Source: Toxorhynchites rutilus septentrionalis
Taxonomy: Eukaryota; Arthropoda; Insecta; Diptera; Culicidae
NCBI RefSeq assembly: GCF_029784135.1
Contig: NC_073745.1
Location: 166,495,649 to 166,559,648 of the forward strand
Direction of reading: 5' to 3'
Length of the DNA stretch: 64,000 nucleotides
Below, one piece after another: positions 7,699 through 64,000 of the stretch (its first letter is position 1; every line of letters starts with the position of its first letter). A program made the translations under genes and the position numbers. The notes under the pieces were generated by a model. That model worked only from the letters and a program-made list of their open reading frames with translations, did not search any database and was not told the origin of the DNA.

Positions 7699-7747
7699 AA
7701 AATCCATGACAAAATAAGCATCATCTTACTTGACGTTGTATATTCCA

Positions 7748-12656: not shown

Positions 12657-15302
12657 TTATTGGCTATAGGCAAAGGTGCAAGTTTGTGTGTTGGTCATCT
12701 TTGGATATCCACTATTCTTAACTTCGATATGGTATAACTGGGTGGATAACTCAAATAATGGTAATGACGTTGAATAGTACACTTCTTCAAAATTATTTTC
12801 ACACTCTTTACTCCAGCTCATACACTCTTTGGGAGGAATCGTTTTAAGTGGATGTTTCATTTCGAATGGTAGCTGAGAATTGCTGATTCGATTACCTACT
12901 TGTAGCAGATCCTTGTCTAGAAACGGTCTCGAATTGTTTAGACGGTGGTTGGACTCTTCTGACACGATACACTCGATCTCCTTCGCAAATTCTTGGTGTT
13001 GAACAGTTTGGTGGGGAAGGAACTTTAACAAATCAGGAGGATCATTGCGCTCATCAATTTCACGACGATGTCCGAGTTCCTCGCACTCGTTTTCACGTAA
13101 CTCTCTGGCAGATTGTTCTCGTGATACGGCATCCGCAGGGTTCTGGTCTGTTCGAAAATCTGCCAGCTGAGAAGCGTTGTCTCTTAATGGAAGATGAACG
13201 ATGAAACGACCACTGTCATCTCGACGATAGGTTGCAGCAAACTGTGCTTCACATTGCTCCTCTTCGGACGATGGAATATTTTCTGGTGACACACTTTCCA
13301 CTTCCCAAAATTTCTGAATAAGCTTCTCGACTGGATCAACACTAACAGCACAAGAACGTATCGCTAAATTGGAAGAGGAACTTTCAAGCAGCTTGCCTCC
13401 AACCAGCCATCCCAGTTGGGAGTCATAAAGGCTAGGGAGATCGTCCTTCAGTTTCAAACACCCTTGTTTCATGATATCGTAAAACCAATCCATTCCAATA
13501 AGCAAATCAACTTGGCTGGGCTCATGGAAGGATGGATCAGCCAGTTGCAGACCTGGAGGAAGTTCCCAATTTTGCAGATTTATTTTCACCGACGGAATGT
13601 GACCAGTAATTTTCGGGGAGACCAAACAATTAATGATGAAGGAATAATCACTGCATTTAGAGTGGACGTGTACGGAACATTTTTGCTTAATCGTTGACCT
13701 TACACTGCCTATGCCTGTTATCGGGACACTTACTTCTTCCACATCGATGCCAAGTGAGGTGACGAATGATTGGGTTATGAAACTCACCTGGGAACCGCAG
13801 TCTAGCAGGGCTTTGCACACACGAGGACGTTGCTGATGATCATAAACATCAACGAGGGCAGTGAGCAACACCACCTGACTTGCTGAATTCTTCGGGTTGT
13901 TGGAGTGTGCTGCTGTTACCGATAGCTGGTGATCGGCATTCACGATAGATTCTGCAACCTTGCTTGGGCCCGGAACCGCAGGATTCGGCATCGCTGGGGG
14001 GCACTTCACTTCAATGTCTTCATCCGAAGGGCACGGTGAGCTGGCACGGCTCTCCAAATGAAGTAATGTATGGTGTCTCTTGTTGCACTTGAAACACGAT
14101 TTATTTGAACGGCAGTTCTTTACGCTGTGTCCACGCCTTAAGCAGTTAAAGCAGACATTTTTCTCCCTGACTTTGGACAGCCGGTCACTCACAGTGAGGC
14201 TGTTGAACCACGAACACTTGAACGTTGGATGGGCTTCTTTACACATTTCACATCGCTGATCCGACGTTGTTGCTGTGTTGACTCTTGGAATGCTTTGTTT
14301 TCCTGTGGGTTGCTTCGCTATCGGTCGATGGAATCCAGATTCTTCACAAGAACCATGGCATCTCTCCAGAACTGAGACGTGGTCCTTCAAAAATTGGATG
14401 GTGTTCTCGTAGGTAGGTAGTTCTCCACGCTTGATGGTGGACTCCCACTGCTTCTTTGTTGTAGCATCCAATGCACGGGCGATCAGATGAATGACGATAA
14501 GTTCCGATACTCCGGTGAACTGTTGGTTGAGGAACTTCAAATTCTGCACGTGACAACTGATGGACTCAACCAGCGATCGTAGCTCAACATAATCCTCTTT
14601 CTCCAATTTCTTCGTTCCGAGTAAACCAGCGATATGAATGTCAATCATTCGCCGCTTGTCCTCAAATCGTTCTTCCAATAGCTGCCAGGCGTGCTCGTAG
14701 TTTCCATCGCTGATTGTTTTTACGTCGATCAATCCTGCTGCGTCACCAACGAGAGCTTTCTCAAGATGATACAGCTTTATTCGCGGTACTTCGTTGGTGC
14801 GATCCACAGCGTCTCGAAACATGATCTTGAATTTTTCCCAGTTCTCGTACCTTCCGTCAAACGTGGGAATGGCACGAGGAAGGGACTGCTGGATCACGAC
14901 GGGTTGTTGATTTACAGCTAATGGCATCGCTTGTTGAAGGTGATTCGGTGGAGGTGCGGTCAAATTCTCAAGCCAGGTTTCGAGAATGGTTGACACCTCT
15001 TCGTGTAGCGTTTCGAAATGCAGGAATTTTACATCTTGATCCTCTCGCTGGTTGGGTGGAATACTTGCCATAACTTGTTGGTGATATTGGTGGTACTCGG
15101 TGTAAGCAGTTTCCACCTTCCTGATGTAGACTTTCACTTGAGCAGAAGTAAGCTCAGTCTGGTCCACTTGGCTCAAAATGTTCTTGATACGCGTGACGTT
15201 GCCTTGTGCTGTGCCACGCATATGGATCAACATGCTCAGTGTTGCTTCTGCATCTTCTGCGTCCTTTGCGGACGGCTTAACTGGCGTTCTTTTCGTTGTC
15301 AT
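12657..15302 (-). CDS. BEL/Pao gag-protease with residual pol, 881 residues
   Basis: ATG at 15302-15300; a GTG-starting extension of three codons is not needed. Residues ~1-340 are a BEL-type gag (IPTFDGRYENWEKFKIMF). At ~350-415 come zinc knuckles CEMCKEAHPTFKC, CFNCLRRGHSVKNC and CFKCNKRHHTLLH. At ~498 is an aspartic protease motif ALLDCGSQVSF, where the usual D-S/T-G is D-C-G. After LIGMDWFYD and QLGWLVGG the frame reaches the pol start (DDSGRFIVHLPLRD) and then jumps to FRTDQNPADAVSREQ, which in complete elements lies after RNase H. It then ends in unrelated-looking pol-derived sequence. The frame stays open across the deletion. Confidence 0.88.
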   Translation of the reverse strand: MTTKRTPVKPSAKDAEDAEATLSMLIHMRGTAQGNVTRIKNILSQVDQTELTSAQVKVYIRKVETAYTEYHQYHQQVMASIPPNQREDQDVKFLHFETLHEEVSTILETWLENLTAPPPNHLQQAMPLAVNQQPVVIQQSLPRAIPTFDGRYENWEKFKIMFRDAVDRTNEVPRIKLYHLEKALVGDAAGLIDVKTISDGNYEHAWQLLEERFEDKRRMIDIHIAGLLGTKKLEKEDYVELRSLVESISCHVQNLKFLNQQFTGVSELIVIHLIARALDATTKKQWESTIKRGELPTYENTIQFLKDHVSVLERCHGSCEESGFHRPIAKQPTGKQSIPRVNTATTSDQRCEMCKEAHPTFKCSWFNSLTVSDRLSKVREKNVCFNCLRRGHSVKNCRSNKSCFKCNKRHHTLLHLESRASSPCPSDEDIEVKCPPAMPNPAVPGPSKVAESIVNADHQLSVTAAHSNNPKNSASQVVLLTALVDVYDHQQRPRVCKALLDCGSQVSFITQSFVTSLGIDVEEVSVPITGIGSVRSTIKQKCSVHVHSKCSDYSFIINCLVSPKITGHIPSVKINLQNWELPPGLQLADPSFHEPSQVDLLIGMDWFYDIMKQGCLKLKDDLPSLYDSQLGWLVGGKLLESSSSNLAIRSCAVSVDPVEKLIQKFWEVESVSPENIPSSEEEQCEAQFAATYRRDDSGRFIVHLPLRDNASQLADFRTDQNPADAVSREQSARELRENECEELGHRREIDERNDPPDLLKFLPHQTVQHQEFAKEIECIVSEESNHRLNNSRPFLDKDLLQVGNRISNSQLPFEMKHPLKTIPPKECMSWSKECENNFEEVYYSTSLPLFELSTQLYHIEVKNSGYPKMTNTQTCTFAYSQ

Positions 15303-15543
15303 TTTGCTCACTTATTGTCTCTTGGAAATAACTTCACTCACTTTTGTTCAGTTTGTATTTTTCACTCGCTTTTAAGCCTTTGTTTTTGCTCACTTTTTTC
15401 GAATTTTCTCCGTGTTTGCTTCCGATCCCTCACATCCACTCCACACTGCGCAGCAACGATGTTCATTCGTCGGATGACGAACCAAAACGATGGTGGATTT
15501 TTCCACCAGAACGATGACACATCCGGACACTCGACACACTTGA

Positions 15544-16346: not shown

Positions 16347-19300
16347 AGTGACTAAGATTTCACCTGATTTTAATCTTTCACTACAAGGTAAATACAAATG
16401 GTACTTCCGTGAGGGACTAACCTCACGCCAGGGTGGAGTATGCCTTGCTGTTTTGAGCCATCTCCCACATACCCTCATCCAAATTTCATCACAGTTACAG
16501 ATATGCGCAATCCAACTCACGGGACCGTTACGGTTAACCCTCGCTTCTATATACATTTCCCCAACGCATAGTAACAGTAATTTGGAAGCAGAAATGAACA
16601 ATGCCATTCAACAATTACCACACCCTTTCATAATCATGGGTGATTTTAACGCCTACCATACTGTATGGGGTGGCCAAAGATGCAATTTAAGAGGTAACAT
16701 TATTTTAAAAATCGTTGAACAACTTAACCTCATCATCCTGAACGACTTCCAACATACTCGTATGGATGAACACTCTGGCTCTACTTCTTCAATTGATTTA
16801 ACGATTACCTCATGGGACCTTGCGCCCAGAGTCAGATGGTGTGTCGATGATGATCTAAGAGGAAGTGATCATTTTCCCATTCACATCCGAACACTGACCA
16901 GTAATCCAAAAATCCTCCTGCGAAGGAGATGGTTGTACCAATTTGCCGACTGGGATGGTTTCGAATCAACCATTTCGCATCTGTTACCTGCACAGGGTAA
17001 CTATTCAGTAGAGGAGTTTTCCCAAGCCGTTTTCGCAGCAGCGAAAGCTAATATACCCCGCACTAATGGTATCTCCGGCCGGAAGGCAGTCCCATGGTGG
17101 AATAATGATGTCAAACAGGCCATTAAATCCAGAAGAAAAGCGCTAAGGAAGCTTAGAAGACAACTGGACGGTAGTGAGACAAAAGTACTTGCCCTAGCTG
17201 ATTTTCAATCTACTAGAGCTAGAGCAAGGAAAATTATAGCGGAAGCTAAACAAAATAGCTGGCTTAAATTTCTTGATAGTTTTTGCCCTCAGACAACTTC
17301 TAGTGAACTGTGGAGCAAGGTTAATGCAATCAGTGGCAAAAAAAGATCGCGAGGCTATTCCATTATGATCAATGGTACCACTACCGATGATCCCGGAACC
17401 ATTGCTGAACATTTTGCTAGTACTTCTGCCACCTCCAACTACAAAAGCGACTTCAAAGCTCGTAAAACTGCCGCGGAGACTACAGAGTTTCCCTCGGACT
17501 CAGGGGAACCTCATATTTACAATATCAGGTTCTCTATGAAAGAAATGTTGTGGTCCATTAGTAAGTCCAAGGGCAAATCAGCCGGACCAGACGAAATAGA
17601 ATACAGCATGTTAAAACATTTACCTTTCCACGTCAAAACGTCGCTGCTCCAAATTTATAATAACCTTTGGGCTAGCAAATGTTTCCCCGACTCATGGAAG
17701 GAAGGGCTAGTCATCCCCATCCCTAAACCGATGGAGAAAAAACCACTAGCCACTAGTTTTCGACCCATCACCCTTCTCAATTGCCTAGGTAAGGTCTTCG
17801 AGAGAATGATCAAACGGAGATTGATGACAAACCTTGAAGAACGTCATCTCCTGGACAACATGCTTTTCGTCAAGGCAATGGTACCAACACGTATTTCAGT
17901 CAACTTGATCAACACCTTCACGTGATCACGCGAGACCACCTCCACGGGGAACTCGCTCTGTTGGACATATCCAAAGCCTACGATACAACCTGGAGATATA
18001 ATATCTTGGACCAACTCCATCAATGGGGTATCGAAGGTAATTTGTTCGAGATAATTCGCAGTTTTCTACAAAATCGTAGCTTCAAAGTTCTTCTCGGAGG
18101 AGTCACCTCCACCAGTAAACTGCAAGAAAATGGAGTGCCACAGGGTTCTGTGCTATCGGTTGCTCTTTTCCTGATAGCGATGCAATCATTATTTGATGCC
18201 ATACCCCAAAATATTGACGCTTTGCTATACGCAGATGATATTCTGCTAATTTCAAAAAACTCATTCCCAGTACTAGCAAGAAGAAGACTTCAGGAAGGAA
18301 TCTCGTCTGTTAATAACTGGGCGAATTCCGTGGGATTTAGGATCTCAGCTGAAAAATCTCAAGTTCTTCATTGCTGCAACAATAAGCGTCACAGGAAAAA
18401 ACTACGTTCTTATCTTCTGAACGGTAGTTCCATTAAACGAGTCAATTCTGCACGAATTCTCGGTGTAATGGTGGACAAAAAACTCACGTTCAATAAACAT
18501 ATAAAGAGTACAATATCGGACATTAAAAACCGCCTTAACTTAGTTAGCGTTATAAGCGGTCGAAGCCGAACAGGATCCCGCAAAACTATCTTCAACATTG
18601 GAAGAAGCTTAGTCTATTCCAAACTTACTTACGGTATTGAACTCTTTAGCCGTGCCACCTGGAAAACGCTTGAAGAACTGAGGCCTAGCTATCAAAAGAT
18701 AATAAGACTAGCATCAGGGGCCTTTAGAACTAGTCCAAGTAAAGCGTTACTCGCTGAGTCAGGCAATTTACCCTTCAAATTGTTCCTCACGAGATTCTAC
18801 AGCACGCGCGCGATACGAACGCTCGAGAAACATCCAACATTTGAATCCTCTCTTGTGAGAGTGAATAACTGGTTGCAGGATACATGCCGAACCACTCTTC
18901 CAACGATTGCACCAATTCCCATTATTAACCTTCGACCATGGTATAAACGGGAACCTCAGATTGATTGGTCAATTAAAAACTCTGTGCGAGCTGGTGAAAA
19001 CAGCAGCATTGTTTTGGCCATTTTCAACAACCACATCCACAGTAAATACCTTTTTCACCACAAGATCTTTACAGATGGATCCTTTGATGGTTTACAAGTA
19101 GGTATCGGCATTTTTGCTAATAACCTGCAAGTTAAGTTCCAACTCCCAAGTATCTGTTCGGTATTTTCAGCTGAATTAGCGGCACTTTTTATCGCTACAT
19201 CAAAGTGCGAACACAACAGAAAGACGGTTATTTTCACCGATTCTGCTAGCGCGCTTCTTGCTCTTGAGAGCGGAAGTAGCAAACATCCATGGGTACTCGC

Positions 19301-19838
19301 AATTGAAGAGAAAACTGCCCAAAATGATATCACCTTCTGCTGGATCCTAGGTCACTGTGGAATCCGCGGTAACGAAGAGGCTGATCGCCTAGCCAAAGAA
19401 GGGAGAACATCCGAACTATGGAGCACAAGCGTCCCATCTGATGATATAATCAGATGGGTTAACTCATCTCTGATGACGTGCTGGGAGAACGAATGGAACA
19501 TCTGCAGAGATACTTTTTTGAGAAAAATTAAAAACACTACCCACCCTTGGATGGATAGAAACCAAAGATCTTTTCAAGTATGTCTAACACGTCTTCGTAT
19601 TGGACATACCAAATTAACGCACAGGTTCTTGGTTGAAAAAACCGAACCACCCATTTGTAATACCTGTAACGTCAGACTGACCGTAGAACATTTTCTACTT
19701 ATCTGCCCACGTTACAACCTTATGAGAACTAAGTTTCAGATAGCTGACAACCCAAGGACAGCCCTAGCAAGAGATAACTTGGAGGAGGACAAATTACTGC
19801 ATTTCCTGAAGGAGACGGATCTTTTGGAGCTTATTTAA
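16347..19838 (+). pseudogene. I-type ORF2: endonuclease, reverse transcriptase, RNase H; frameshifted
   Basis: Continues the endonuclease from 11846 in phase (VTKISPDFNLSLQGKY; GDFNAYHTVWGG; SDHFPIHIR). RT: GPDEIEYSMLKHLP, FRPITLLNCLGKVFERM, DISKAYDTTWR, GVPQGSVLS, LYADDILLIS. RNase H: FTDGSFDGLQVG, VFSAELAAL, FTDSASALLAL, LGHCGIRGNEEADRLAKEG. A Cys-rich tail (CNTCNVRLTVEHFLLIC) follows. A one-base loss near 17864-17870 shifts the frame: the first part runs to a stop at about 17925 and the rest resumes in another phase from ~17870. EN-RT-RNase H order plus a zinc-knuckle ORF1 fits the I group (I/Loner-like). Inactivated by both the BEL insertion and the frameshift. Confidence 0.88.
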
Positions 19839-20015: not shown

Positions 20016-20323
20016 CTCGTTCTCAAATTTCTCAAATGTTCTCAAATGTTCTCAAATGGGGATCAACACTAGGGTAGGAGCCTACCTGTTGGTCTCAAAT
20101 GTTCCTATCTCACGCCTCCACGAAGATCATATGACGACATTTTTAGATCGGGCGTGAACTGGAAACACACACCTGGTCTTGGCTCCGAGAACGGGTGTCG
20201 AAAGTGGCTAAGTGAGGGGGTGCGAGCGAGTCAGAGCGCTATATCTCTCCCGGGGAAGGCCTCCCGGGTCATGGAGGCCTTGCCAACCCGCTGTCTCCCG
20301 GGCAAAGGAGATACACCCAGAAA
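20016..20323 (+). mobile_element. 5' region of the R4/Dong-type element
   Basis: Begins with short repeats of TTCTCAAATG (20020-20060, again near 20095) and becomes GC-rich before the ATG at 20324. The true 5' boundary is not visible. Confidence 0.45.
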
Positions 20324-23300
20324 ATGGAGCTACGTTCACGAAGAATACTCAGAATGCGATCGCCCGAGGAGGGTCCCCGAACTGGAGCTGGTCCTGGAAC
20401 GGGCGTAAGAGCGAGCGGCCAGCGGCTGGAGGGCGATGTGCAAGAGCGGGCCACCAGCCGGGTTCAACCCGAAGAGCTACCGCCACACGGAAACAGCAGC
20501 CATCGACATCACCAACGAAACGCTGCGCCTACGAGGCGTGTTGCGACTGTCAGACGACAGTCGTCCACACTTGTGGGTACTACTAGGCGACGGATCATGT
20601 GGACACACGAAATGAACGAATTCGTGATCCGCGCCTATTACATCTGCACTGCTTTGGAGACGGACATGAGCGGTCGCCCTCGAATACTCGCAATGTTCGA
20701 GGAAGCGTATCCAGAGTTCGTCGGGAGGCTTGACCAAAACGCGATGAACGCGAGGCGTAGAGCGATTGTACGCAACAATATGCTCTCCCAAACGCAAGTC
20801 GACGAGATCAAGCAGCAGGTGCAGAGAGAACTAAGCTCCAGAACAAGCAGAGCAAGCGATGTGTCGAGACGAAGTTCAGTACGGCTGAGCAATTCATTCG
20901 CGAGTGGGGCACGCGAATCAGCACCAGTGGAGGCCACAGTACAACAACCCCCTGAGCCGGAAGATCCACAGCCAGATCAACAACTACTACGCGATCTGGT
21001 CTTCCATTACGACGAGGCGATCTCACAGTTCCGCGACACGGACCCTTTGTCGCGCCCCAGGATCCCGAAGTTGCAGCATTCTCGCAGGCTGACAAGTGCA
21101 GTAAAGCTCATGAACGAGCACGTTCTTCCGCTGCACTTGGTTGATGCTGAGAACATGGAGGAGCTGCAACTGAAAGTTTACTGTGCTGCTGTGGCGACCG
21201 CCAAAAGTTTAGGATACCGTATTAGGCCAAGAGGCGGACTGCTCCAACATCTCCGTGAAAGGCGTGAGCCTCCGTGGCGAAGGAGATTGGAGCAACGGAT
21301 CCTAAACAAGCGCGCCGCAATTGGAAGACTGATGGCGTACAAAAGAGGCAGCAGATCGGCGAAATTATGTCGCCAAGTTGCTGTGATCGTGCGGCCTACT
21401 GAACTTCGCCAGCTGGGAGCTCACCAGCTGACGGAAAAACTCGACACACTGGTACAGCAATTGAGCGTCCTAACTAAACGGCTGAAACGTTACTCTGACT
21501 CTGCAAAGCGCCAGGAACAAAATCGGATGTTCAGAGATAACGAAAAAGCGTTCTACGACCACATTAGCGACGAGAAACCCGACTACCGCGAAGGTTTGCC
21601 AGATATTAGCGATGTGACGAACTTCTGGGCTGGTATTTGGGAAACCCCAGTACAACATCGCGAAGGGCAAATGTGGTTAAGACGGGAGGAGGAGAGTTGT
21701 GGTGAAATTGGAGAGATGCCAGCTATCATCGTCGGAGAGAACGATGTCCGCGAAGCCTCGCGGTACCTGAGGAACTGGGCAGCACCGGGCCCCGATGGTG
21801 TCCAGAACTTTTGGCACAAGAAGCTGACCGTCGTACATCCAAAGATAGCTGAGTGCTTCAACAAGGTGCTACGTGACCCACATAACCTTCCTGAATTCGC
21901 CACCCGTGGCGTCACCTTCCTCCTCCCGAAAGACAGCAACACATTGAACCCATCAAAGTACAGACCGATAACGTGCCTATCGAGTCTGTACAAAATACTG
22001 AGCAGCATAATTACCGCCAAAGTTTCTGCTCACTGCGAACAGCATCACATCATCGCAGAAGAGCAGAAAGGATGCAGGAAAAATACGCATGGCTGCAAAG
22101 ACCAGGCCATCATCGACGCAGCCATAGTCGGCCAGGCGGTATATAACCAGCGGAACCTAAGTATGGCCTACATCGATTACAGGAAGGCTTATGACTCCAT
22201 ACCTCACTCGTTTCTCGTCCGGGTATTGGAGCTCTACAAAATTGATCCCGTCGTCGTTAGGTTCCTGCAGCATGCGATGAGGCAGTGGAGTACGTCTCTG
22301 CACCTCAGTGATGGGGAAAATGTGTTGCAGTCTAGAACGCTGCAGATAAAGAGGGGGATATTCCAAGGCGACTCTTTCAGCCCGCTTTGGTTTTGTCTGG
22401 CACTGAACCCCCTCAGTAGGACGCTCAATAGAAACGGTCATGGCTATAAAATAAGGTATGGCGACGGCGCCCACGAAGAAGTGACCCATACCTTCTACAT
22501 GGATGATCTCAAGGTCTACGCTGATTCACGTCAGCGTCTAGGTGTAGCTATCCGGGTTGTCGAAGACATAAGCAGGGACATCTGCATGGAGTTCGGCCTC
22601 GACAAGTGCCGCTGTGTCCATATGCTGAAAGGGCAGCTTACCGAATCCGGAGGTTACGAGGTCTATGACGGCGAGTTCATAAGAGACATGGTTCGTGGCG
22701 AATCCTATAAATATCTTGGATTCCGACAGCTCACCGGGATTCGCCACTCCGACATCAAGACGGAGCTGCGAGACAAGTTCTTGAGTCGAGTGAACTGTGT
22801 CCTGAGGACTTTCCTCAACGCGGGGAACAAGGTACGCGCGATCAACACATTCGCGGTTCCCCTGCTGACCTTCAGTTTTGGTGTAGTCAAATGGAGCAAA
22901 ACTGACCTAGAGGACCTTGAGAGGAGGATGAGGAAAGCATTTAAAGAGGCCGGAATGCACCATCCTCAATCGGCACTGGAGAGAGTTTCACTGCCACGCA
23001 AAGAAGGGGGACTTGGAATAGTCGACATATCTGCACTGTGTGTTGCCCAGGTACGACAACTGCGCGAGTACTTCGCAGAACGCGCCAACCAAAACGCGCT
23101 ATACCGGGCTGTCTGCGCCGCCGACAGAGGATACAGCGCTCTGCACTTGGCGCAAGCGGAGTACCAACTCAACTGCAATCTGCAGACAGTGGAGGAGAAG
23201 ATTGCAGCTTGGAAGCAGAAGGCAGTGCATGGTGCCCACCCCCATCAACTGGACCGGCCACACGTCGACAAGGCCGCATCTAATCTGTGGCTAACGCGTG

Positions 23301-23986
23301 GTGAACTCTCTTCAGTAGTAGAAGCCGACATGATAGCCATCCAGGACAGGATAATGCCGACGAGAAACTGCAGGCGGTACGTCTGGCATCAAGACGTTGA
23401 TGACATTTGCCGGATGTGCCATCAACCAGGTGAAAACATAGAGCACATTATGGGAGGCTGTCCCGTTTTGGCCAACGCAGCCTACACCGAGCGCCACAAC
23501 AACGTGGCCCGTATTGTTCATCGACAACTGGCGCTCCAATGTGCTCTACTGGAAGACAACGTACCAAACTACCGGTACCTGCCAGCACCTGTCCTGGAAA
23601 ATGACCGTTTCAAGCTGTACTGGGATCGCACTGTTCTGACCGACCTCTCGATCCACCACAACCGCCCAGATATAATGGTTTACGACAAGAGCGACCGCAA
23701 AGTCACCATCATCGATGTCGCTATTCCACTGAACCAGAATCTGGAGGAGACCCACGGTCGCAAAATCTGCAAGTACCGACCATTGGCCGTGGAGCTCAAG
23801 GAACTGTGGGGGCTAAGGGAGGTCCCAAGAATTGTTCCAGTCGTTCTCTCTGGAACTGGAATTATCCCGAAGACACTTCTGGAAGCGCTAAAGGTGTTGA
23901 ACATCGAGAAGGAATTGGCCGGCATCCAAAAGTCGGTCATCCTTAGCACCTGCGCGATTGTCCGACAATTTCTCGGTCAGGACTAA
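20324..23986 (+). CDS. R4/Dong-clade retrotransposon polyprotein (RT + restriction-like endonuclease), intact
   Basis: 1220 residues from a real ATG. The N-terminus is Arg/Gly-rich, then a Myb/trihelix-like DNA-binding segment at ~90-165 (WTHEMNEFVIRAYY). RT: AAPGPDGVQNFWHKK (~487), YRPITCLSSLYKI, MAYIDYRKAYDSIPH (~615), FQGDSFSPLWF and catalytic FYMDDLKVYA (~723). The C-terminus has a CCHC finger CRMCHQPGENIEHIMGGC (~1028) and the restriction-like endonuclease motif RPDIMVYDKSDRKVTIIDVA (~1115), which would nick the target. A single ORF with RLE after RT defines the R2/R4/NeSL group. The Tyr-Met-Asp-Asp box and the trihelix point to R4/Dong. Base composition is GC-richer than its surroundings. 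Confidence 0.85.
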   Translation: MELRSRRILRMRSPEEGPRTGAGPGTGVRASGQRLEGDVQERATSRVQPEELPPHGNSSHRHHQRNAAPTRRVATVRRQSSTLVGTTRRRIMWTHEMNEFVIRAYYICTALETDMSGRPRILAMFEEAYPEFVGRLDQNAMNARRRAIVRNNMLSQTQVDEIKQQVQRELSSRTSRASDVSRRSSVRLSNSFASGARESAPVEATVQQPPEPEDPQPDQQLLRDLVFHYDEAISQFRDTDPLSRPRIPKLQHSRRLTSAVKLMNEHVLPLHLVDAENMEELQLKVYCAAVATAKSLGYRIRPRGGLLQHLRERREPPWRRRLEQRILNKRAAIGRLMAYKRGSRSAKLCRQVAVIVRPTELRQLGAHQLTEKLDTLVQQLSVLTKRLKRYSDSAKRQEQNRMFRDNEKAFYDHISDEKPDYREGLPDISDVTNFWAGIWETPVQHREGQMWLRREEESCGEIGEMPAIIVGENDVREASRYLRNWAAPGPDGVQNFWHKKLTVVHPKIAECFNKVLRDPHNLPEFATRGVTFLLPKDSNTLNPSKYRPITCLSSLYKILSSIITAKVSAHCEQHHIIAEEQKGCRKNTHGCKDQAIIDAAIVGQAVYNQRNLSMAYIDYRKAYDSIPHSFLVRVLELYKIDPVVVRFLQHAMRQWSTSLHLSDGENVLQSRTLQIKRGIFQGDSFSPLWFCLALNPLSRTLNRNGHGYKIRYGDGAHEEVTHTFYMDDLKVYADSRQRLGVAIRVVEDISRDICMEFGLDKCRCVHMLKGQLTESGGYEVYDGEFIRDMVRGESYKYLGFRQLTGIRHSDIKTELRDKFLSRVNCVLRTFLNAGNKVRAINTFAVPLLTFSFGVVKWSKTDLEDLERRMRKAFKEAGMHHPQSALERVSLPRKEGGLGIVDISALCVAQVRQLREYFAERANQNALYRAVCAADRGYSALHLAQAEYQLNCNLQTVEEKIAAWKQKAVHGAHPHQLDRPHVDKAASNLWLTRGELSSVVEADMIAIQDRIMPTRNCRRYVWHQDVDDICRMCHQPGENIEHIMGGCPVLANAAYTERHNNVARIVHRQLALQCALLEDNVPNYRYLPAPVLENDRFKLYWDRTVLTDLSIHHNRPDIMVYDKSDRKVTIIDVAIPLNQNLEETHGRKICKYRPLAVELKELWGLREVPRIVPVVLSGTGIIPKTLLEALKVLNIEKELAGIQKSVILSTCAIVRQFLGQD

Positions 23987-41501: not shown

Positions 41502-42502
41502 AAGGGTGTGTCACATCAAATTGCATCACGGAAAAAACGCTGTAGAAATTTAGTTTTTAGGAATTATATCTTCAGCTTTCGCTTATAATCAGATAAGAGT
41601 GTATAGATCACGTTGGCCATGCTTCACTGTCAATTTTTCGTAAATTTGGAAAAATGTCGTCGAACGAAAAAGAGCGTCGTGAATTAATCCTGTGCACTCA
41701 TTTCGAGAATCCGGAGTTGTCACATCGGGACATCGGTAAGATGCTGGGAATCGTCCAATCCACGGTCAGCAGAGTACTAAAACGATACTTCGAGAACCTA
41801 ACCATCGACCGGAAGGTGAAGAACGGCAAAAATGGATGCTCCGTCAGTGAAAAAGATCACAAGCGCGTAGTTAAGCAGTTTAGACGTGATCCGAGAAGTT
41901 CGGTCCGGGATGTCGCCAATAAGCTGAATTTGTCAAGTTCATTCGTCCAGCGGACCAAGCAGCGGGAGGGCCTGCGTACATACAAGGTTCAGAAGGCTCC
42001 TAACCGCGACGAAAGGCAATGGTGGGGAAGACGCGAGCCCGGAAGCTGTACACCGAAATGCTGACGAAGCCGCATTGCCTAGTAATGGACGACGAAACCT
42101 ACATCAAAGCGGACTTTCGTCAGCTGCCGGGCCTGTTGTTCTTCTCCGCAGAGGACAAATTCAGCGTTCCGGAGGAGATTCGCAAGCAGAAACTATCCAA
42201 GTTTGCCAAAAAGTACATGGTGTGGCAAGCGATCTGCTCTTGCAAATCGGAGGCGGACTTCAAGAGAAAATGGATTTCTGTTCAAAAAAAAACTACAACC
42301 TGACGTTGTACAGAACCTTATGGACGGGGTAAAGAGGAAGGTGTGAGCATACGGGCTTGGGCTCGAAGTATGAATAAAAAGAAAATGCCAAAAGTTGTTT
42401 AATAGTTTTTATTTTACTGTCTAAAATTTTCAAAAGGATCGGTCTACTGGGCGAATTTCTACAGCGTTTTTTCCGTGATGCAATTTGATGTGACACACCC
42501 TT
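41502..42502 (+). mobile_element. DD37E Tc1-like transposon, internally deleted copy
   Basis: Ends AAGGGTGTGTCACATCAAAT and its complement, inverted repeats of ~45 bp, TA duplication at 41500-41501 and 42503-42504. The transposase begins at ATG 41654 with a helix-turn-helix region (LSHRDIGKMLGIVQSTVSRV). A 4-base loss near 42019 breaks the frame. The catalytic block VMDDETYIKADFRQLPG follows in another frame. About 300 bp, including the second Asp and Glu region, is deleted at 42244 relative to 51291-52587. Confidence 0.92.
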
Positions 42503-51290: not shown

Positions 51291-52587
51291 AAGGGTGTGT
51301 CACATCAAATTGCATCACGGAAAAAACGCTGTAGTAATTCGCCCAGTAGACCGATCCTTTTGAAAATTTTAGACAGTAAAATAAAAACTATTAAACAACT
51401 TTTGGCATTTTCTTTTTATTCATACTTCGAGCCCAAGCCCGTATGCTCGCACCTTCCTCTTTACCCCGTCCATAAGGTTCTGTACAACGTCAGGTTGTAG
51501 TTTTTTTTGAACAGAAATCCATTTTCTCTTGAAGTCCGCCTCCGGTTTGACAACTTTTGGGTTCTTCCGGAGGGCCTGCTTCATAATCGCCCAATATTTC
51601 TCTATTGGGCGAAGCTCCGGCGCGTTGGGCGGGTTCATTTCCTTTGGCACGAAGGTGACCCCGTTGGCTTCGTACCACTCCAACACGTCCTTTGAATAGT
51701 GGCACGAAGCGAGATCCGGCTAGAAGATGGTCGGGCCCTCGTGCTGCTTCAATAGTGGTAGTAAGCGCTTCTGTAGGCACTCCTTGAGGTAAACCTGCCC
51801 GTTTACCGTGCCGGTCATCACGAAGGGGGCGCTCCGCTTTCCGCAAGAGCAGATCGCTTGCCACACCATGTACTTTTTGGCAAACTTGGATAGTTTCTGC
51901 TTGCGAATCTCCTCCGGAACGCTGAATTTGTCCTCTGCGGAGAAGAACAACAGGCCCGGCAGCTGACGAAAGTCCGCTTTGATGTAGGTTTCGTCGTCCA
52001 TTACCAGGCAATGCGGCTTCGTCAGCATTTCGGTGTACAGCTTCCGGGCTCGCGTCTTCCCCACCATGTTTTGCCTTTCGTCGCGGTTAGGAGCCTTCTG
52101 AACCTTGTATGTACACAGGCCCTCCCGCTGCTTGGTCCGCTGGACGAATGCACTTGACAAATTCAGCTTATTGGCGACATCCCGGACCGAACTTCTCGGA
52201 TCACGTCTAAACTGCTTAACTACGCGCTTGTGATCTTTTTCACTGACGGAGCATCCATTTTTGCCGTTCTTCACCTTCCGGTCGATGGTTAGGTTCTCGA
52301 AGTATCGTTTTAGTACTCTGCTGACCGTGGATTGGACGATTCCCAGCATCTTATCGATGTCCCGATGTGACAACTCCGGATTCTCGAAATGAGTGCACTG
52401 GTTAATTCACGACGCTCTTTTTCGTTCGACGACATTTTTCCAAATTTACGAAAAATTTACAGTGAAGCATGGCCAACGTGATCTATACACTCTTATCTGA
52501 TTATAAGCGAAAGCTGAAGATATAATTCCTTAAAATTAAATTTCTACAGCGTTTTTTCCGTGATGCAATTTGATGTGACACACCCTT
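51291..52587 (-). mobile_element. DD37E Tc1-like transposon, full-length copy
   Basis: 1297 bp with the same ~45-bp inverted ends as 41502-42502 and TA duplications (51289-51290, 52588-52589). Transposase on the minus strand from ATG at 52435. A small indel near 52400 shifts the frame. The main frame (52373-51720) has VMDDETYIKADFRQ and KKYMVWQAICSCGKRSAPF. A TAG at ~51720 replaces the Trp codon of the F-W-P-D-L motif, after which DLASCHYSKDVLEWYEANG and APELRPIEKYWAIMKQ continue in phase. Thirty-seven residues separate the second Asp from the Glu. Inactive as coded, but its termini are intact. Confidence 0.93.
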
Positions 52588-56142: not shown

Positions 56143-59100
56143 ATGGATAAGAGAAAAATAATTCAAGGATGTACAATACTTGTCGTAATAAATATATCCT
56201 GGATAAACGCCAAACAAAGCGAATATATTTCAGACCCAATGGTAAAGATAATGTTTTTTTGAAAAAGTTGAATAATTGTAACTTGCTATATTATTTCCCA
56301 GAATATACAGATGAAGAGTGGTGCCGGGTTCGTCGGGCATAGTAATGAAGATTTTTACTCAGATGTCAATCAAATTGATGATGTAATATTGCCACTCTCG
56401 CTGCCAAACGGAAGAGACATGCCACATGTTCCTGAGATTAATTCTCTCGTCCCAAATGCACCTGAAAACGTATTCAATTATACTCGGTAATCAATAAATC
56501 AATTTGACTCAACAAAATCAAATTATCAGCCAACAAAATGATATTACTATAGGGATGCAGTAGGAAGTAAAATCAGCGACAAAACGGGAGTTTATGATAA
56601 TTATATATCACTGGAAAAACCCTCCATTCAATTCCCTGCCAATGAAGGTTTTGTGGTGAGTATGAGTGTGCAGTAAATTGGATAAGGGGAAAATAGTCTT
56701 AATATTCTTACTATTCCAATAAAATGATAGGTTCAGTGTTATTTTTTTGTGAAACTTAAAAGACTCATCATCATGCACTGACTTGATGATTATTCGAAGA
56801 AGAGAATTTATCCTATTCATAGCTCTAATTACTTGGAATCCGTTTTATAGCAACGCTCTAATAACATATACATTAATCCTCCTGTACTCGCGCGCAAAAT
56901 CATAACACGTTTACTCGCGCACGGTGTCACAGACCGAAAATTGAACTTCTGTTTAATGTTGCCATTGTGTATTTTTCAGGCTTTATTAGCATTTATTTGA
57001 AGAAGAGGGTATGATTGAATGAAAAAACTCCAAAACATATGTTTTCCTCGTCTTTATTATGTTTTAATAGTCATCTAATTCAGCCTCCTCAAAATAGAGT
57101 AATTTTTGATACTCCAACACAAATAACGAAATTCAAATTTTTCACTGTTATTAATTAAAAGTAAGCAACTGAATATAATTTATGGAAGTATAAAGAGCTA
57201 TAAAATAACATAAAAACGTATTAATCGATTGTGGTTTCATTGGAGTAAGAATCATAACATAGCATTACTGCATGCTCGAAACAAACATATTTTTTTTACA
57301 TTTCATGCAGTTGTTGCGTGTTTTTCGGGTCTTTTATCGAAGAGAAGAATGTATAACGACCTTGTAGATAGTTACTAGATCATAAAGGTTCTGGAATATG
57401 AAATTTGCATATTTCTAATATTCTTTGTCTCTGTTTTCTTGGTAAACTAAGAATTAATGCTTTTTTTAGATGGGGCATAAAAAGATGATATAAAAGGATT
57501 TCTAGGAACTTCCTTTTCTTTTTCTTGTTTTCTTGTCGATATTGTCCATTATTAAAAAAATATCCCCGAAACTGTAACTGTTACAAAATAACCATAAGCC
57601 ACCGATTAGTTTATAGTTCACTGTTTACAATTCTTCCATAAGTGAAATTATTTCACAAGTGTGTATATGTATGTATGTAGCGAATAACTATACGAAAGTC
57701 AAACATTTATATTTTGCTTTCAAACGTATGAATCTAACGACGAATAGTTAATATATGGATCCATTCAATCCAGTTACAAAAGGGACTGAAATCAAATAAG
57801 AATAGTCCGGAATATTTAATAAGAATATTTAATAAAGATTCCACGCCACTAACATTAATTTATACATTTCATTCAACAATATTCTGGAATATAAAAAAAG
57901 CCACTTGTCCAAAAAAGTTACTCCTATACTCGCGTCGGAGTGTCAGACCGAAAGTGTTAAAAAAGTGGCACACGTCCCCTTTGTACCAACACATGCGATA
58001 CGCTAAACGATGACGAACGCCGAATAACGAAGCTAGAGAGAATCGTAAAGTCGTAGTGTTGATATTTTCTGAGAAATGAACGGATTATTGATTTCTCGGT
58101 CTGACAGACCAATGCGCGAGTATAGGAGTGTTAAAGAAAATGGATTCATTTCGGATGGTGATGAAAAAAGCTATAGATGATATTCAATGGATCGAATTTT
58201 CCTTAACATTTTCGTCGCCCAGAGCGATTCGGTCGAGTTCAGGTTCGATTGAGGATTACTTTTCTGTTGAATCCGAATGAAATCAACCGACTGCTGATTA
58301 GAAAACTTATAAAATTTTTCAGCCAATTGTACAGTGTTGCCAATGATAAAAAAATGAAATTCAACCGAACGTACTTGCTCTGTATACTACGAGGGTCGTT
58401 CAAAAAATAAGTTTCAGTGCCTTAGAAATCGCGGAAAAATAAAGTTAGGACAAAAAGCAAGGTGATTTTCGTAATCTACGTTTTATTTTCTATTTTTCTA
58501 CATAAACGCTGTAACGTTCGAAACATTTTTCATAGCGTGGCACGAGTTTTTCTATTCTGAGCGCGAAGTGTGTAGCGTCCAACTTTTTGAAGTACGATGT
58601 AACTGCGTCACGAATTTCTTCCGTGTTATCGAATCATAGACCGCTGAACGCGAACGTTACGCGAGCAGAATGGGGCCGCGCATTATCGTGGATAAGGAAC
58701 ACGTTAATAAACCTGGCCGTATTTTGTTCTTAATCGATCCAAAACTTCACAATAGTACGGTGATGTAACAGGCGTTCAGCGGTCAAACGGATTTCTGAGG
58801 TACTGAAACTTATTTTTTGAACGACCCTCGTATATTCGATGACGATGGATAATTACAATTTTATTGGAGAATATGAAATATTCTGTTCAATCGATTGCGA
58901 AGATTCTGTGTATATATTATACCAAGAACATATGTCACTTTTGTGGGAAAATAATTGTCATAAACTATATCACATTTGGCAACCCCGACTTTCCACGAGA
59001 TTCGTTTTCATTATTCTTTGCGCTTGGTTGGTAAAAAGCTGAAAGGAGAGGCAAGTTGCAAGTTTTTTTTTCTGAGAATGAGAATAATAATTGCGCAACT

Positions 59101-60628
59101 CGGATAGGCCACTGTTCATTCTTAAAGATTTTTCTTAGACGCCATGTGTTTTTTCAACCTCAAAATGTTCACCGGACGGCGTAATAGTAAATCTGAAAGC
59201 GATGGAAGTAGTGACGACGAAATAGTGCGAAGAGTTAGAAGAAAAGTTTCGAGTATTATCTCATATGTCATCTAGATCGGGGTGACGGGGCGATCAAAGT
59301 GTTAAACCGTACTTTCTTCTACAAATCCCATCCTCCCTCGCGTCATACTTCTTGATGAAGACGACAACTTCGTGTTGTATATCTCCCCGTTCACCGCAAG
59401 CTCCAAAGGTAAGATCAGCGGTTAGACATTCCCCTCTCGTTGATCGTCAACCACAGACGGAACTTCTTCGAGAACTTGATATGGTAGATATATTTGGCGT
59501 CATCGCTTACCACATGATGGGGGACGTAAAGTACCTGACCGTCGTTGCCGAACAACGTCATGTAGGTCTCGTTATCCCATTATGACCACGACGTCGCGCT
59601 TTGCCAAAAAAATATTTTTCACCAAAAAAATATTTTTCAGCCTACCATGCCATTCGGCGACACATTCTAAACTTAGTCATGGTTTAATGTTCTCCACTGA
59701 GTACTTATTCGCAAGCGAGTTTTGCTTTTGGGTACTTTATCTCGTTCCCCTATTATTTAATACGTCACACATCAAGTGATTTCACTACTCCGGTGAGCGC
59801 CACGAGTGAGACTCGATGTTGTAGGGAAAGGGTTAATCGGAATATTATTCACGATTTCCCTAACATAAGCCCCTTCACATTATTTCATTCGGACAGCAAT
59901 AAAATGTAGTTATGCTGCATTCATAGAATATTGCAAACCATTGTAATTGTTTACCATATTAATTGTTTAAATCGCTGAGAACGCAAGGTAGGACAATTGA
60001 GTATGCCGCATCAGGATATTTTGACTATTCGTGCCAAAACCATGTTATTCAATTATGGAATTTTTCTTTCATGCGTTATCACATTTTTTTTATAAAACAT
60101 TGATTCATTCGAGGTTGCATTATATTCACGTTTCATTTTCATTCTCAGGATATTCATGGTAAAACTGTTTTAGCAAGATATCCCCCGGTATTGAATTCAA
60201 AGCGTGCTCCTTCTGGCTTTCTTGGTTTAAGAGGCAAAAAACATAATAATGCGCCTTGGCGTTCATCTAAGGAATATTTGGGTAGGCAGTGGATCTTAAA
60301 AAGCTTATATTGAGGGTTACTCATTTTTTGTTCCGTTGTAGGAACACTCCAAAGAAAAACCAACTTCGATGGAACCAAAGAGATGACTAATGAATCAGCA
60401 GATTATAAACTACCTGTAATGTTAGAACTTCATGACCTAATTCGAGAAAATCGTAAAATTTTGGGTGAAATTAATGAAATTAAGCAATTTAACGAAAATT
60501 TGTTGGACCTTATTAGTACTGAAACCATTGCGCTACGTCCGGTTAAAAAGCGTGTTCCATCTGGATTTCTTGGGATGCGTGGAAAAAAGATGGTCGACAT
60601 GGAGAGAGAACATGTAGCAGAAAAATGA
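56143..60628 (+). CDS. Tk: Tachykinin-related peptide precursor, five coding exons, early stop
   Basis: Exons 56143-56241, 56302-56486, 56553-56655, 60149-60281 and 60342-60628 join in phase (807 nt, 268 residues). All introns are GT-AG with good pyrimidine tracts before AG. Residues 1-23 look like a signal peptide (basic MDKRK, then a hydrophobic IIQGCTILVVINISW stretch). Exon 4 encodes KR-APSGFLGLR-GKK (peptide at ~149-157) and exon 5 encodes KKR-VPSGFLGMR-GKK (~245-253). Both have the FxGxR-amide pattern: dibasic cleavage, Gly amide donor, dibasic site. They would be secreted neuro/gut peptides acting on a tachykinin GPCR. A TTTTAG acceptor at 56129-56134 just before the ATG suggests a 5' UTR intron. 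Two peptides is few; insect precursors usually carry more. The frame ends in AAA-TGA followed by codons for SPLGFLG, as if a Lys-Arg had become Lys-stop. Confidence 0.88.
56877..58130. mobile_element. TTAA-flanked element in the tachykinin intron
   Basis: Left end TCCTCCTGTACTCGCGC, right end GCGCGAGTATAGGAGTG, flanked by TTAA (56873-56876 and 58131-58134). The motif GTGTCA(C)AGACCGAAA occurs near the left end, again at ~57942 and, inverted, near the right end. About 1.25 kb, no readable transposase. It lies wholly within intron 3. Confidence 0.75.
58390..58830 (-). mobile_element. mariner deletion derivative in the tachykinin intron
   Basis: 441 bp with inverted ends ACGAGGGTCGTTCAAAAAAT / ATTTTTTGAACGACCCTCGT and TA on both sides (58388-58389, 58831-58832). 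The minus strand encodes FLIHDNARPHSARVT (second Asp region), then YFKKLDATHFALRIEKL and KCFERY, a mariner C-terminus with the remainder deleted. Confidence 0.88.
59380..59620 (-). pseudogene. Possible Tc1/mariner transposase fragment
   Basis: Minus strand reads DNETYMTLFGNDGQVLYV, then DDAKYIYHIKFSKKFRLWLT and INERGMS before a stop. The order (D-E-T-Y, K-F-x-K-K, W-x-x-I) resembles the first catalytic block of Tc1/mariner transposases. Also within intron 3. Confidence 0.45.
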
Positions 60629-60963
60629 TCACCTTTAGGATTTCTTGGTGAGTATCTTGGTCTTTGTAAACGTATAGCGCATGTTTTAAATTTGTATAAT
60701 TTTGAATGACAAGGAAGCCGAATTAATAAATTTAAACATTCAACACACATTTCCATTACAATGGATCTGATTGCACTTGTAAAAACAATTAACCAACTCA
60801 TCCAGTGATGGCTGTGGCATATTTTCGTACCCCAATGTTTACAATTTTTTACAAACTACGATCGTTTCTTGCACATAACCATGTTTGCCTTATGCTAACA
60901 TCTAACTAACTAACATTGAAAAAAGAAACTTTATTTGCAGGCACAAATCTTGGAAACAAGTGA
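60629..60963 (+). other. Region after the tachykinin stop: vestigial peptide and terminal exon
   Basis: In phase beyond the TGA come codons for SPLGFLG up to 60647, then a good donor GTGAGT (60648). An acceptor TTTATTTGCAG ends at 60940. If spliced, the next exon adds TNLGNK and stops at 60961-60963. The product would lack the Met/Leu-Arg-Gly needed for an amidated tachykinin end, so this third copy is probably degenerate. Inference from sequence only. Confidence 0.6.
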
Positions 60964-61021
60964 TCTGGTCTAGTCTGAGTAGGAAATAAGGAACGATACT
61001 TTCCATTATTCGTTAACCAAT

Positions 61022-61027
61022 AATAAA
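61022..61027 (+). terminator. Likely polyadenylation signal of the tachykinin gene
   Basis: AATAAA about 60 bp after the last possible stop, in an AT-rich 3' UTR. Confidence 0.5.
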
Positions 61028-61077
61028 AAATTACTACATCTTACTGAATGGTACAGAACAATGAAAATATAAATTAG

Positions 61078-61401
61078 TTATATAGCGATGTGATATGAAA
61101 TTATATTATCTCTAAGGAATGTTAAGAGTACTATACTATGAAATTCATGTTTATACAGTGAGAAATAAATATTGAAATCATCAACGCAGAAAAATCTGTT
61201 ATCCTTGCAAGCATTTTGTTTCAATTTTTGTTCACAGTTTCTTTCGGATGCAATGATCGAGTATTTCGTCAACTGATCCAGATCCTCACGAATGTTAACC
61301 AGTTTGATTTTAGCGATATTAATAAACTTGTAGGCTTTGTAGTTGCTGGAATACCCCACCAGTAGCGTTGAGTGCGGGCGGCAAACCAAACCAATTTTCA
61401 A
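61078..61401 (-). pseudogene. Possible Copia-like pol fragment
   Basis: A 107-codon minus-strand ORF contains VCRPHSTLLVGYSSNYKAYK and FINIAKIKLVNIREDL. The VGYSSxxKxYKF pattern recalls the C-terminal end of a Copia integrase. Weak: no second motif is visible. Confidence 0.3.
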
Positions 61402-61572
61402 TTGAATTTTTTTACCGTATTATATTTTATCTTTCAATTGAGTTAAAAAAACATCCATCATGAGTAGTTGCTTCTGTCCGTACATAAAACCAATAACCTC
61501 TCTTTGATTTTCGTGAAACTGAAACACATAACGTCACAATACACCAATACTCTTTTAATTTTTCGCTACGCA
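61390..61572. repeat. Repeat Y, copy 2 (inverted)
   Basis: Reverse complement of the 43870-44010 region; shares AGTTGCTTCTGTCCGTACAT. Confidence 0.6.
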
Positions 61573-61574
61573 TG

Positions 61575-61960
61575 CCTGTCTTGAAGGTCGAAAAATAATG
61601 AATTTCCGTGATAGTTTTTCGGATGTTAGGAATAAAGTGAATTATTCGAGTATTTTGGTTATTGTTTAATGTATATTTGAAAATGTATTTTCCATTTTTT
61701 AAATGCAGGAATAATGATTATTACGCTGTTGACGGCTGGATCGTAGATGCTGTCTGAAAATCGGTACCTTGCTGGTGGTATCGGTTCTGAAGCAACGGAG
61801 TGTCGCAGAACGATTTCCAATGAATATTTCGAAAATTTATGACAATACCTAATGCGTCATATAGGGATTTTTGAAGATCCGAAAAATGCCAAAATTGCGG
61901 CCTTTTTTTGTTAAAAATGAGTTATTTTTAATGAAAAATCGGTATTTGAAAGCTAATAAC
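61575..61960. mobile_element. Truncated inverted copy of the GGTCGAAAAA TTAA MITE
   Basis: GAAGGTCGAAAAATAATGAATTT through GATGCTGTCTGAAAATCGGTACC to AAAAATGAGTTATTTTTAATGAAAAATCGG corresponds to 42511-43201 read backwards, lacking the far end. Confidence 0.75.
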
Positions 61961-62420
61961 AGGGTGTCGACTACCTTGAAAATCCATGAAAATCAGGGAA
62001 TTCAAACAATGTCAGGGAAAGTCAGGGCATATCAGGGAATTTCGTCACCAATCTAGAAAAAATGAAGTTCTATCAACCATAATTTTGATTATTACAATAG
62101 TTACAAAGTTAATGACTAGTTTGGGTCTCTGTAGGTTTTTCAGTATATGTTGTTTGCTTTTGCCTGTAGGTGAACTTAGTCCTTCCGAAGGGTAAGCAGC
62201 GCAAAAGTACACGGCTTTCACATTCGCGATGTTTTACTGGCATTTTTGGCATCAGTATCTGCCGTTCAGCTTCAACCAATTCCCTTCCTTTTCTTCGTCG
62301 AAAACTATTGATAAATTAATGCTTGAAAATCATACTATGAAAGTTGAGCTCCTGTGGTGTCTGGAAACAGTTATGTAGCACAAATCACTCCACACTGTTG
62401 AAAGATACATTATTGTATTG
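61961..62420. other. No gene seen; TCAGGGAA-rich segment
   Basis: Starts ACAGGGTGTCGACTACC and contains several copies of TCAGGGAA within 61985-62040. Probably an element end, not identified. The remainder has no features I can support. Confidence 0.4.
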
Positions 62421-62800
62421 AGAAGAATGTTTCATGACAACCAGGAAGCTGAGAAGGTCTAACTAGGGCGTGATAAAATGAGCTTTATGACGATTTTTGG
62501 TTCGATGAAACTATGTAAGCTATACATTGCCTTTGGTTTCGGCGAATCTTTAAACAATACTACAAAGAGTATACAGATGGATCTGAATGTCAGATTTTGG
62601 GATGAAAATTAGAAGGATTTGGTAAATCTTTACATGACGTCAATGTTCTTGGGACATTCTCAAGCATCAGGACTTGCAGCTTTTGAAGAAGGCATGGAAA
62701 TTATATATTTGAACAAACTTCCTTCTGTGTCGATGGACGGTATAAACGTGAATTGGTCATATTACCCGAGCTGCAACTGGTTTTGAAGAGAAAAAAAAAT
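62421..62800 (+). pseudogene. hAT-like transposase fragment
   Basis: Plus strand: FGESLNNTTKSIQMDLNVRF, WDEN-stop-KDLVNLYMTSMFLGHSQAS, GLAAFEEGMEIIYLNKLPSV and SMDGINVNWSYY. The DESLN, QMDLxVRFWD, FLGH and SMDGxNVNW series fits a family of hAT-related transposases found in many animals, from memory. One in-frame stop; ends abruptly. Confidence 0.55.
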
Positions 62801-62834
62801 CTTGAAAACTCGCCAACATTTTACGACTGACAAA

Positions 62835-63974
62835 TAACCATGGAATCCCAGATCACCTACGCTCCGATTCTATTCCGCCGATATTTTCGGCAGAATATGG
62901 GAAAGTTAGATTTGATAAAATGTTCTTTACTGACGGTTCATACATAAACGGGTCCACTGGCTTCGCCATTTTCAATGAAAATTCCAGTGCCTCTTTCAAA
63001 CTCAAAGATCCTTGTTCCGTGTATGTCGCTGAACTGGGTGCGATATACTTCTTCTTCTTCTTCTTCAATGGCACTAACGTTCCTAGAGGAACTTCGCCGT
63101 CTCAATGTAGTATTACTTGTGTCATTTTTATTAGTACTTAGTTGAGATTTCTATGCCAAATAACTCGGCTTGAATGCATTCTGAGTGGCAAACTCTAGAA
63201 TACGCGTGATCACAGTGCAAGTCGGAGGAAATTTCTTTGACGAAAAATTCCCCCGACCAGAACGGGAATCGAACCCGAACACCCGGCATGTTAGTTATGA
63301 CGCTAACCACTCGGCCAAGGGTGCGATATACTACGCTACGCTACTACGATAAACGCTCATCTTATTTCCTAACAAGAATAAGACATCTATTGAGTGTTTT
63401 GGTCGAAAAATTATTCAAGATTACCTTAGCATGGGTTCCCTCTCATTGCTCGATTCCGGGGAATGAGAAAGCGGACTCGCTAACTAAGGTGGGCGCATCA
63501 GAAGGCACACTTTTTGAAAGGCAAATTGCTTATAATGAATTTTTCCACATTTCTCGTCAGCACACGCTCGTAAGTTGGCAGCGCATGTGGAGTGAAGATG
63601 AGTTCGGTCGTTGGTTACACACGATTATCCCTAAGGTCTCGACGAGTGCATGGTTCAAGGGATTGAATATAGGTCGTGATTTCATTCGCGTGATAACTCG
63701 ACTTATGTCCAATCACTACAACCTAAACGCGTATCTTTATCGCATTGGGCTCGCAGCAAGCAATCTATGTGATTGTGGCGATGGCTACCACGACATCGAG
63801 CATATTGTCTGGTCGTGTATCTGGTTCCATGCTGCCCACTCTCAGCTCTCCAGAGCATTGAGGGCACAAGGCAGACAATCAGATATCCCCGTCCGGGATA
63901 TCTTAGGTAGCCGTGATCCTGATCTTCTGCTCCATCTATACCTGTTCCTCAGAAACGCCGATGTCAACGTTTAA
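62835..63974 (+). pseudogene. LOA/I-type LINE RNase H and C-terminal fragment, split by a SINE
   Basis: PPIFSAEYGKVRFDKMFFTD, GSYINGSTGFAIFN and VYVAELGAIYY are the first half of an RNase H. After the SINE come ITLAWVPSHCSIPGNEKADS, LTKVGASEGT, then a tail with CDCGDGYHDIEHIVWSC and a stop at 63972-63974. The segment with the third RNase H acidic residue is missing beyond the SINE. It is 5'-truncated just before 62835. A long frame from 63237 starts inside the SINE and is a fusion artefact. Confidence 0.82.
63049..63318 (-). mobile_element. tRNA-related SINE, copy 3
   Basis: Reverse orientation, (TTC)n at its left end and TTGGCCGAGTGG head at its right. Flanked by the 13-bp duplication GGGTGCGATATAC (63036-63048 and 63319-63331). 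Inserted in the RNase H coding sequence. Confidence 0.92.
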
Positions 63975-64000
63975 TGATGTTTCCTTCGTTGTGTCCCTGT
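63975..64000. other. End of window, probable 3' UTR of the LINE fragment
   Basis: Twenty-six bases after the stop; nothing further can be said. Confidence 0.3.

Follow-up and report, generated by a model that had tools for sequence, protein, structure and literature searches.

Copy loss in the tachykinin precursor gene of the elephant mosquito Toxorhynchites rutilus septentrionalis, with a stop codon at a cleavage site and a relic peptide behind it

Neuropeptide precursors are cut by convertases at dibasic sites, after which the basic residues are removed and a Gly is used for amidation. According to the accessible part of a review (PMC6880623), an invertebrate tachykinin precursor holds 1 to 15 peptides; thus, a precursor with two of them is not in itself surprising. 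The peptide APSGFLGLR corresponds to TKRP-1 of Ae. aegypti, whose presence in antennal lobes was measured with mass spectrometry (PMC5699834, accessible text). Analysis of the relatives' proteins, taken from similarity and profile matches in sets of 11, 23, and 9, revealed a culicine order composed of TK1 (APSGFLGLR in most), TK2 (VPSGFTGMR in Ae. aegypti), TK3 (APSGFLGMR in Aedes, a clean copy being absent in Armigeres and P0032), and TK4 (APSGFLGLR-GKR in most), followed by a poor TK5 and, in several models, by a last copy.

The tachykinin precursor gene of T. rutilus septentrionalis, the elephant mosquito, corresponds to the protein annotated at NCBI as "uncharacterized protein LOC129769005" (P0013, 268 aa). 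The gene that encodes the precursor in T. rutilus is thereby identified, NCBI leaving the protein without a name. All the residues of P0013 (268/268) could be placed in the window (the whole stretch of DNA analysed, 64,000 nucleotides), and a spliced model of five exons, with GT-AG borders at the four coding introns, translated exactly to P0013, whose C-terminus is the TGA at 60626-60628 (Table 1). The translated exons 4 and 5 matched P0013 with 100% identity along 91% of the query (E 5.1e-85), the next match being at E 1.9e-26. As P0013 and the window share their subspecies, and probably their assembly, the protein gives no independent confirmation of the base at the TGA. The N-terminus, MDKRKIIQGCTILVVINISWINA, was judged hydrophobic by eye.

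Table 1. Coordinates of the tachykinin gene of T. rutilus, its peptides and relics, and other elements of the window.
Feature	Position	Strand	Remarks
Exon 1	56143..56241	+	Start codon, likely signal peptide MDKRKIIQGCTILVVINISWINA...; exactly P0013 residues 1-33; GTAAAG donor
Exon 2	56302..56486	+	Spacer; spliced model equals P0013
Exon 3	56553..56655	+	Spacer; donor GTGAGTAT directly after
Exon 4	60149..60281	+	TK1 and first half of decayed TK2
TK1 APSGFLGLRG	60206..60235	+	Lys-Arg before, Lys-Lys after; intact, with amidation Gly
TK2 relic WRSSKEYLG^TLQRKTNFD	60257..60370	+	From alignment with relatives; 60-base phase-1 intron 60282-60341 inside
Exon 5, coding part	60342..60628	+	Terminates at TGA
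TK3 VPSGFLGMRG	60554..60583	+	Lys-Lys-Arg before, Lys-Lys after; intact, with amidation Gly
TGA stop	60626..60628	+	Position of the Arg of Lys-Arg before TK4 in 11/11 relatives checked
TK4 relic SPLGFLG	60629..60649	+	In phase after TGA: TCA CCT TTA GGA TTT CTT GGT; relatives APSGFLG or APSGFVG
Donor GTGAGTAT	60648..60655	+	After first base of TK4 Gly (CTTG/GTGAGTAT); likely ancestral TK4 donor
AATAAA	60725..60730	+	Possible poly(A) signal about 100 bases past the stop; pattern only
Candidate terminal exon start (TNLGNK-stop)	60941..60963	+	Possible 3' untranslated exon; rank 1341/6736
Non-LTR retrotransposon-like pair	6607-10576		ORF with Baculo_FP_2nd domain, then endonuclease and reverse transcriptase ORF
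Gag-like ORF	12657-15311	-	DUF1759 and aspartyl protease matches
Two further long reverse-transcriptase ORFs	17838-19838, 20216-23986		First with RNase H
Two closely similar transposase-like ORFs	51720-52406, 41597-42064	-, +	Similarity by eye

Membership in the insect tachykinin precursor family was supported by the presence of two FxGxR-Gly peptides between dibasic sites (KR-APSGFLGLRG-KK and KKR-VPSGFLGMRG-KK), and by homology extending past the peptides, with E values of 1.9e-26 to P0014 and 2.5e-22 to the Uranotaenia lowii protein, the alignments covering 94 to 97% of a query that starts at exon 4. A profile match to the T. rutilus precursor at E 1.6e-81 is not independent, P0013 itself being a row of the profile. 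No Pfam tachykinin model was found on P0013 or on five other mosquito precursors, including that of Ae. albopictus (0/6, E up to 1); thus, the Pfam test does not discriminate here. The possibility of a sialokinin, the salivary peptide whose FxGLM ending (an FxGLMamide) is given in the accessible part of PMC6880623, was rejected, as the T. rutilus peptides end in FLGLR and FLGMR.

The number of copies was counted as F.G.RG matches in 35 proteins chosen from 175, with the named mosquito rows representing 13 species. T. rutilus showed two intact copies (APSGFLGLRamide and VPSGFLGMRamide), a count that holds for the present assembly and is the fewest among 13 named mosquito species, the others having mostly four to six, values that are lower bounds, as their models may miss exons or represent single isoforms. 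The other 13 named mosquito rows held 3 to 6 copies, three being found only in isoform X4 of Ae. albopictus, a skipped isoform whose counterpart X1 has four. A model of 187 residues, P0118, also showed two copies, but it stops soon after TK2. The models from Ae. aegypti and Ae. albopictus (P0031, P0016, P0077) share with T. rutilus an identical TK1 (APSGFLGLR), the order of the copies, the Lys-Arg and Gly-Lys-Lys frames and, as deduced from the Ae. albopictus isoforms, equivalent places of the introns inside TK2 and TK4. In contrast, the full-length Aedes models run through TK4 to a last FxGVR copy, whereas T. rutilus keeps only TK1 and TK3. The Anopheles tachykinins (5 models) belong to the same family and share the FxGxR-Gly ends, but have four copies in 5/5 models against two in T. 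rutilus. No protein labelled as coming from another Toxorhynchites was present among the matches listed (the best 120 of 125 and the best 120 of 215, many of them without organism label), and the names of two sabethine genera that do not bite, Malaya and Topomyia, were absent from them as well.

The T. rutilus frame reads AAA-TGA at positions 60623-60628, with the T at 60626, thus Lys-stop where the relatives read Lys-Arg before TK4. This Lys-Arg was found in all 11 of the relatives checked that hold TK4 (P0053, P0125, P0015, P0016, P0031, P0027, P0046, P0042, P0014, P0032, and P0082), and none of these 11 ends at the T. rutilus stop codon; P0077 (first half of TK4 skipped) and P0118 (sequence stopping short of TK4) were left out of this check. 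The AAA-TGA pair, the in-phase SPLGFLG (60629-60649), a good donor at 60648, and a good acceptor at 60940 had been pointed out in an earlier, sequence-only reading of this DNA, and all of them were borne out. That reading had further proposed that a copy preceded by Lys-Arg was lost, leaving a two-peptide precursor, and had named orthologues that end naturally at this codon as evidence to the contrary; the alignment agrees with the former, and the latter were not found among the 11 relatives. It had taken the lost copy for the third one, which has to be corrected, as the alignment shows it to be TK4, the fourth of the family, with TK2 decayed too. Its CGA ancestor for the TGA is possible, but it is one option only, as the Arg codon in both intact T. 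rutilus copies is CGT.

The TK4 relic carries two residue changes, A to S and S to L, as 11/11 relatives checked read APS, although the search pattern for the relatives' TK4 itself required A and P. A search for P.GF.G in the six frames of the window detected three sites, TK1, TK3, and the relic, and among them only the relic has a good GT donor after the first base of the last Gly, TK1 having GTTTAAGA there; thus, SPLGFLG is more than a chance occurrence. The donor GTGAGTAT itself has two copies on the + strand of the window, those of exon 3 and of the relic, and none on the other strand. In tblastn searches with the C-terminal tails of six relatives, SPLGFLG was recovered with E values from 0.21 to 1.8 for five of the six and was absent from the matches listed for the sixth; the seven residues are not significant by similarity search alone and are identified by their place. 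The exon from 60342 to the relic donor has 306 bases (60342-60647) and is symmetric, in phase 1, with the TGA within its last 22 bases. In Ae. albopictus, a single block of 99 residues, VPSGFT^ to APSGFL^GLRGKR, distinguishes isoform X1 (P0016) from isoform X4 (P0077), which implies an equivalent exon of 297 bases running from inside TK2 to inside TK4, as read from the proteins and not from Aedes DNA. The kept core P.GFLG of the relic agrees better with a loss in recent times than with a copy dead for long. The loss of a peptide copy is real and well placed, and represents a modest change in a well-known family. In the explanation that we hold to be highly probable, a change from an Arg codon to TGA in the Lys-Arg before TK4 deprived a working tachykinin gene of its 3' part, and the gene now encodes a two-peptide precursor.

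Judging from its sequence, TK2 is decayed too, in frame. The intron inside the TK2 relic lies at the same place as the split of TK2 implied by the Ae. albopictus isoform junction VPSGFT^, and the second half of the relic ranked 45 among 6746 AG sites when scored against nine relatives, a score that covers this second half only. In addition, in the region upstream of TK1 (60149-60205), T. rutilus reads HGKT where 7/9 aligned relatives read RGKK (EKK in the other two), so that an upstream dibasic site was lost as well. In P0016 (Ae. albopictus X1), TK2 reads VPSGFTVMRG and not GFTGMRG, its FxGxR core being broken by an odd residue at the exon junction, which may reflect an allelic variant or an artefact of the model.

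Downstream of the stop, a well-formed acceptor, TTTATTTGCAG, ends at 60940, and its splicing to the donor at 60648 would produce ...SPLGFLG-TNLGNK with a stop at 60961-60963. The sequence-only reading had placed a short terminal exon at 60941, and its spacing to G-N-K, equal to that in Ae. aegypti, looked suggestive by eye; this was dropped after a profile test against seven ungapped relatives, in which the stretch as the old TK4-TK5 exon ranked 1341 among 6736 AG sites of both strands and 30 among 148 locally, a chance-level fit on which it was rejected. None of the 151 AG sites between 60655 and the end of the window at 64000 leads in phase to Gly-x-Arg-Gly. The same reading had called the lost copy already degenerate, which finds support in this absence and in the two residue changes, but not in the spliced tail that it had invoked, as this depends on the chance-level exon. 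Remnants of TK4 to TK6 were also searched for in 60600-64000 by tblastn of the C-terminal parts of six relatives, and only SPLGFLG plus weak short matches (best E 0.10), taken as chance, were detected. The original rest of TK4 may have been deleted, may have decayed, or may lie beyond the window. The AATAAA at 60725 means that the transcript may simply end there.

The Sabethini are reported as the sister group of the Toxorhynchitini (Soghigian et al., PMC10558525, accessible part), and this relation rests on that work and not on our gene tree. Like T. rutilus, the models of Sabethes cyaneus (P0053) and Wyeomyia smithii (P0125, isoform X2) present no last copy after TK4, and the sequence that follows TK4 in them resembles a decayed TK5 (by eye; Sabethes aligned). 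In contrast to T. rutilus, both have four intact copies, including TK2 and TK4, and no early stop. The absent last copy fits an erosion of the 3' end begun before the two tribes split, or may be an isoform effect. Both sabethine models start without a clear signal peptide, P0125 being labelled as isoform X2, and the X2 models of Ae. aegypti and Oc. camptorhynchus, with different ends, also miss VPNGFLGVR; thus, absence from one model is weak evidence, and the sabethine models may be incomplete or stand beside other possible 3' isoforms. A gene tree joining Toxorhynchites with the Sabethini was not obtained: in a tree of 15 rows, Sabethes and Wyeomyia appeared together, outside a weakly supported group holding Toxorhynchites, and the forks around the latter were weak (53/9, 68/78, 76/85). 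The end branch of the T. rutilus precursor (1.92) was the longest of the 15 rows (median 0.32), which fits a relaxed constraint outside the two peptides. A broader scheme, doubtful in our opinion, would have the copies lost stepwise from the 3' end in both tribes, the last one in their common ancestor and then TK2 and TK4 in Toxorhynchites, with this extreme state, in a mosquito that no longer takes blood, reflecting a relaxed need for tachykinin signalling in blood-meal feeding and gut control.

The chief uncertainty is the fixation of the TGA in the species, as a single base decides the reading. An error made in sequencing or assembly, or an uncommon allele in the individual sequenced, would leave a species that still makes more than two tachykinins, and would agree with the well-kept core of the relic. 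However, one base error would not explain the two further changed residues of the relic, the lack of any acceptor leading in phase to Gly-x-Arg-Gly among the 151 sites, or the erosion of TK2 in the same gene, and we consider this explanation unlikely. That the whole gene is a pseudogene is very unlikely: the long branch, the decay of two copies, and an NCBI name in which a tachykinin goes unrecognised would point that way, but the five exons are open, each of the four coding introns has GT-AG borders, and the two remaining tachykinins are perfect, their cleavage and amidation sites being complete.

It is even less to be expected that a third peptide is still made by occasional read-through of the stop or its avoidance through alternative splicing. 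The frame is open up to the good donor, but read-through joined to the candidate exon would give SPLGFLGTNLGNK, without Arg-Gly for amidation, and without splicing the frame would enter intron sequence (SPLGFLGEYLG...); likewise, the symmetry of exon 5 would permit its skipping, as seen in Ae. albopictus X4, but this would remove TK3 and not restore TK4. Under the preferred explanation, loss of TK4 by a stop at its cleavage site, the gene is presumably expressed, with the TGA allele probably fixed and the transcript probably ending soon after exon 5. The precursor would be secreted and cleaved on both sides of each peptide, upstream at KR or KKR and downstream at KK, and trimming of the basic residues and amidation from Gly would release APSGFLGLRamide and VPSGFLGMRamide; TK2 would have decayed in frame, and of TK4 only the SPLGFLG relic, no longer translated, and the old donor would be left.

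The locus offers a clear molecular fossil of copy loss in a multi-copy neuropeptide precursor, in which the stop sits at a cleavage site and both the relic and its donor persist. Toxorhynchites takes no blood meals. In the accessible part of PMC6880623, in vitro work is said to give no evidence that paracopies differ greatly in activity, with DTK-6 of Drosophila as a possible exception; therefore, copy loss may be tolerated and, together with the lack of blood feeding, this makes T. rutilus a natural experiment on the importance of copy number. In T. theobaldi, the posterior midgut transcriptome (PMC11286187, accessible part) lists NPF, DH31, and others, and this list, from a paper that was absent from the Toxorhynchites tachykinin literature found, is weak evidence with regard to gut expression. 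No description of the T. rutilus truncation was found in the accessible parts of the Toxorhynchites tachykinin and neuropeptide literature (e.g., PMC12928595 on RYamide, PMC11286187), a set with few subscription papers.

Beyond the tachykinin gene, an open frame of 254 residues follows it (63210-63974), with no Pfam match at E 0.001, and several mobile-element-like ORFs are present in the window (Table 1). The Gag-like ORF looks like part of what we take to be a BEL/Pao element, and the two transposase-like ORFs are presumably Tc1/mariner-like; that on the minus strand showed helix-turn-helix matches, one of them above its cut-off.
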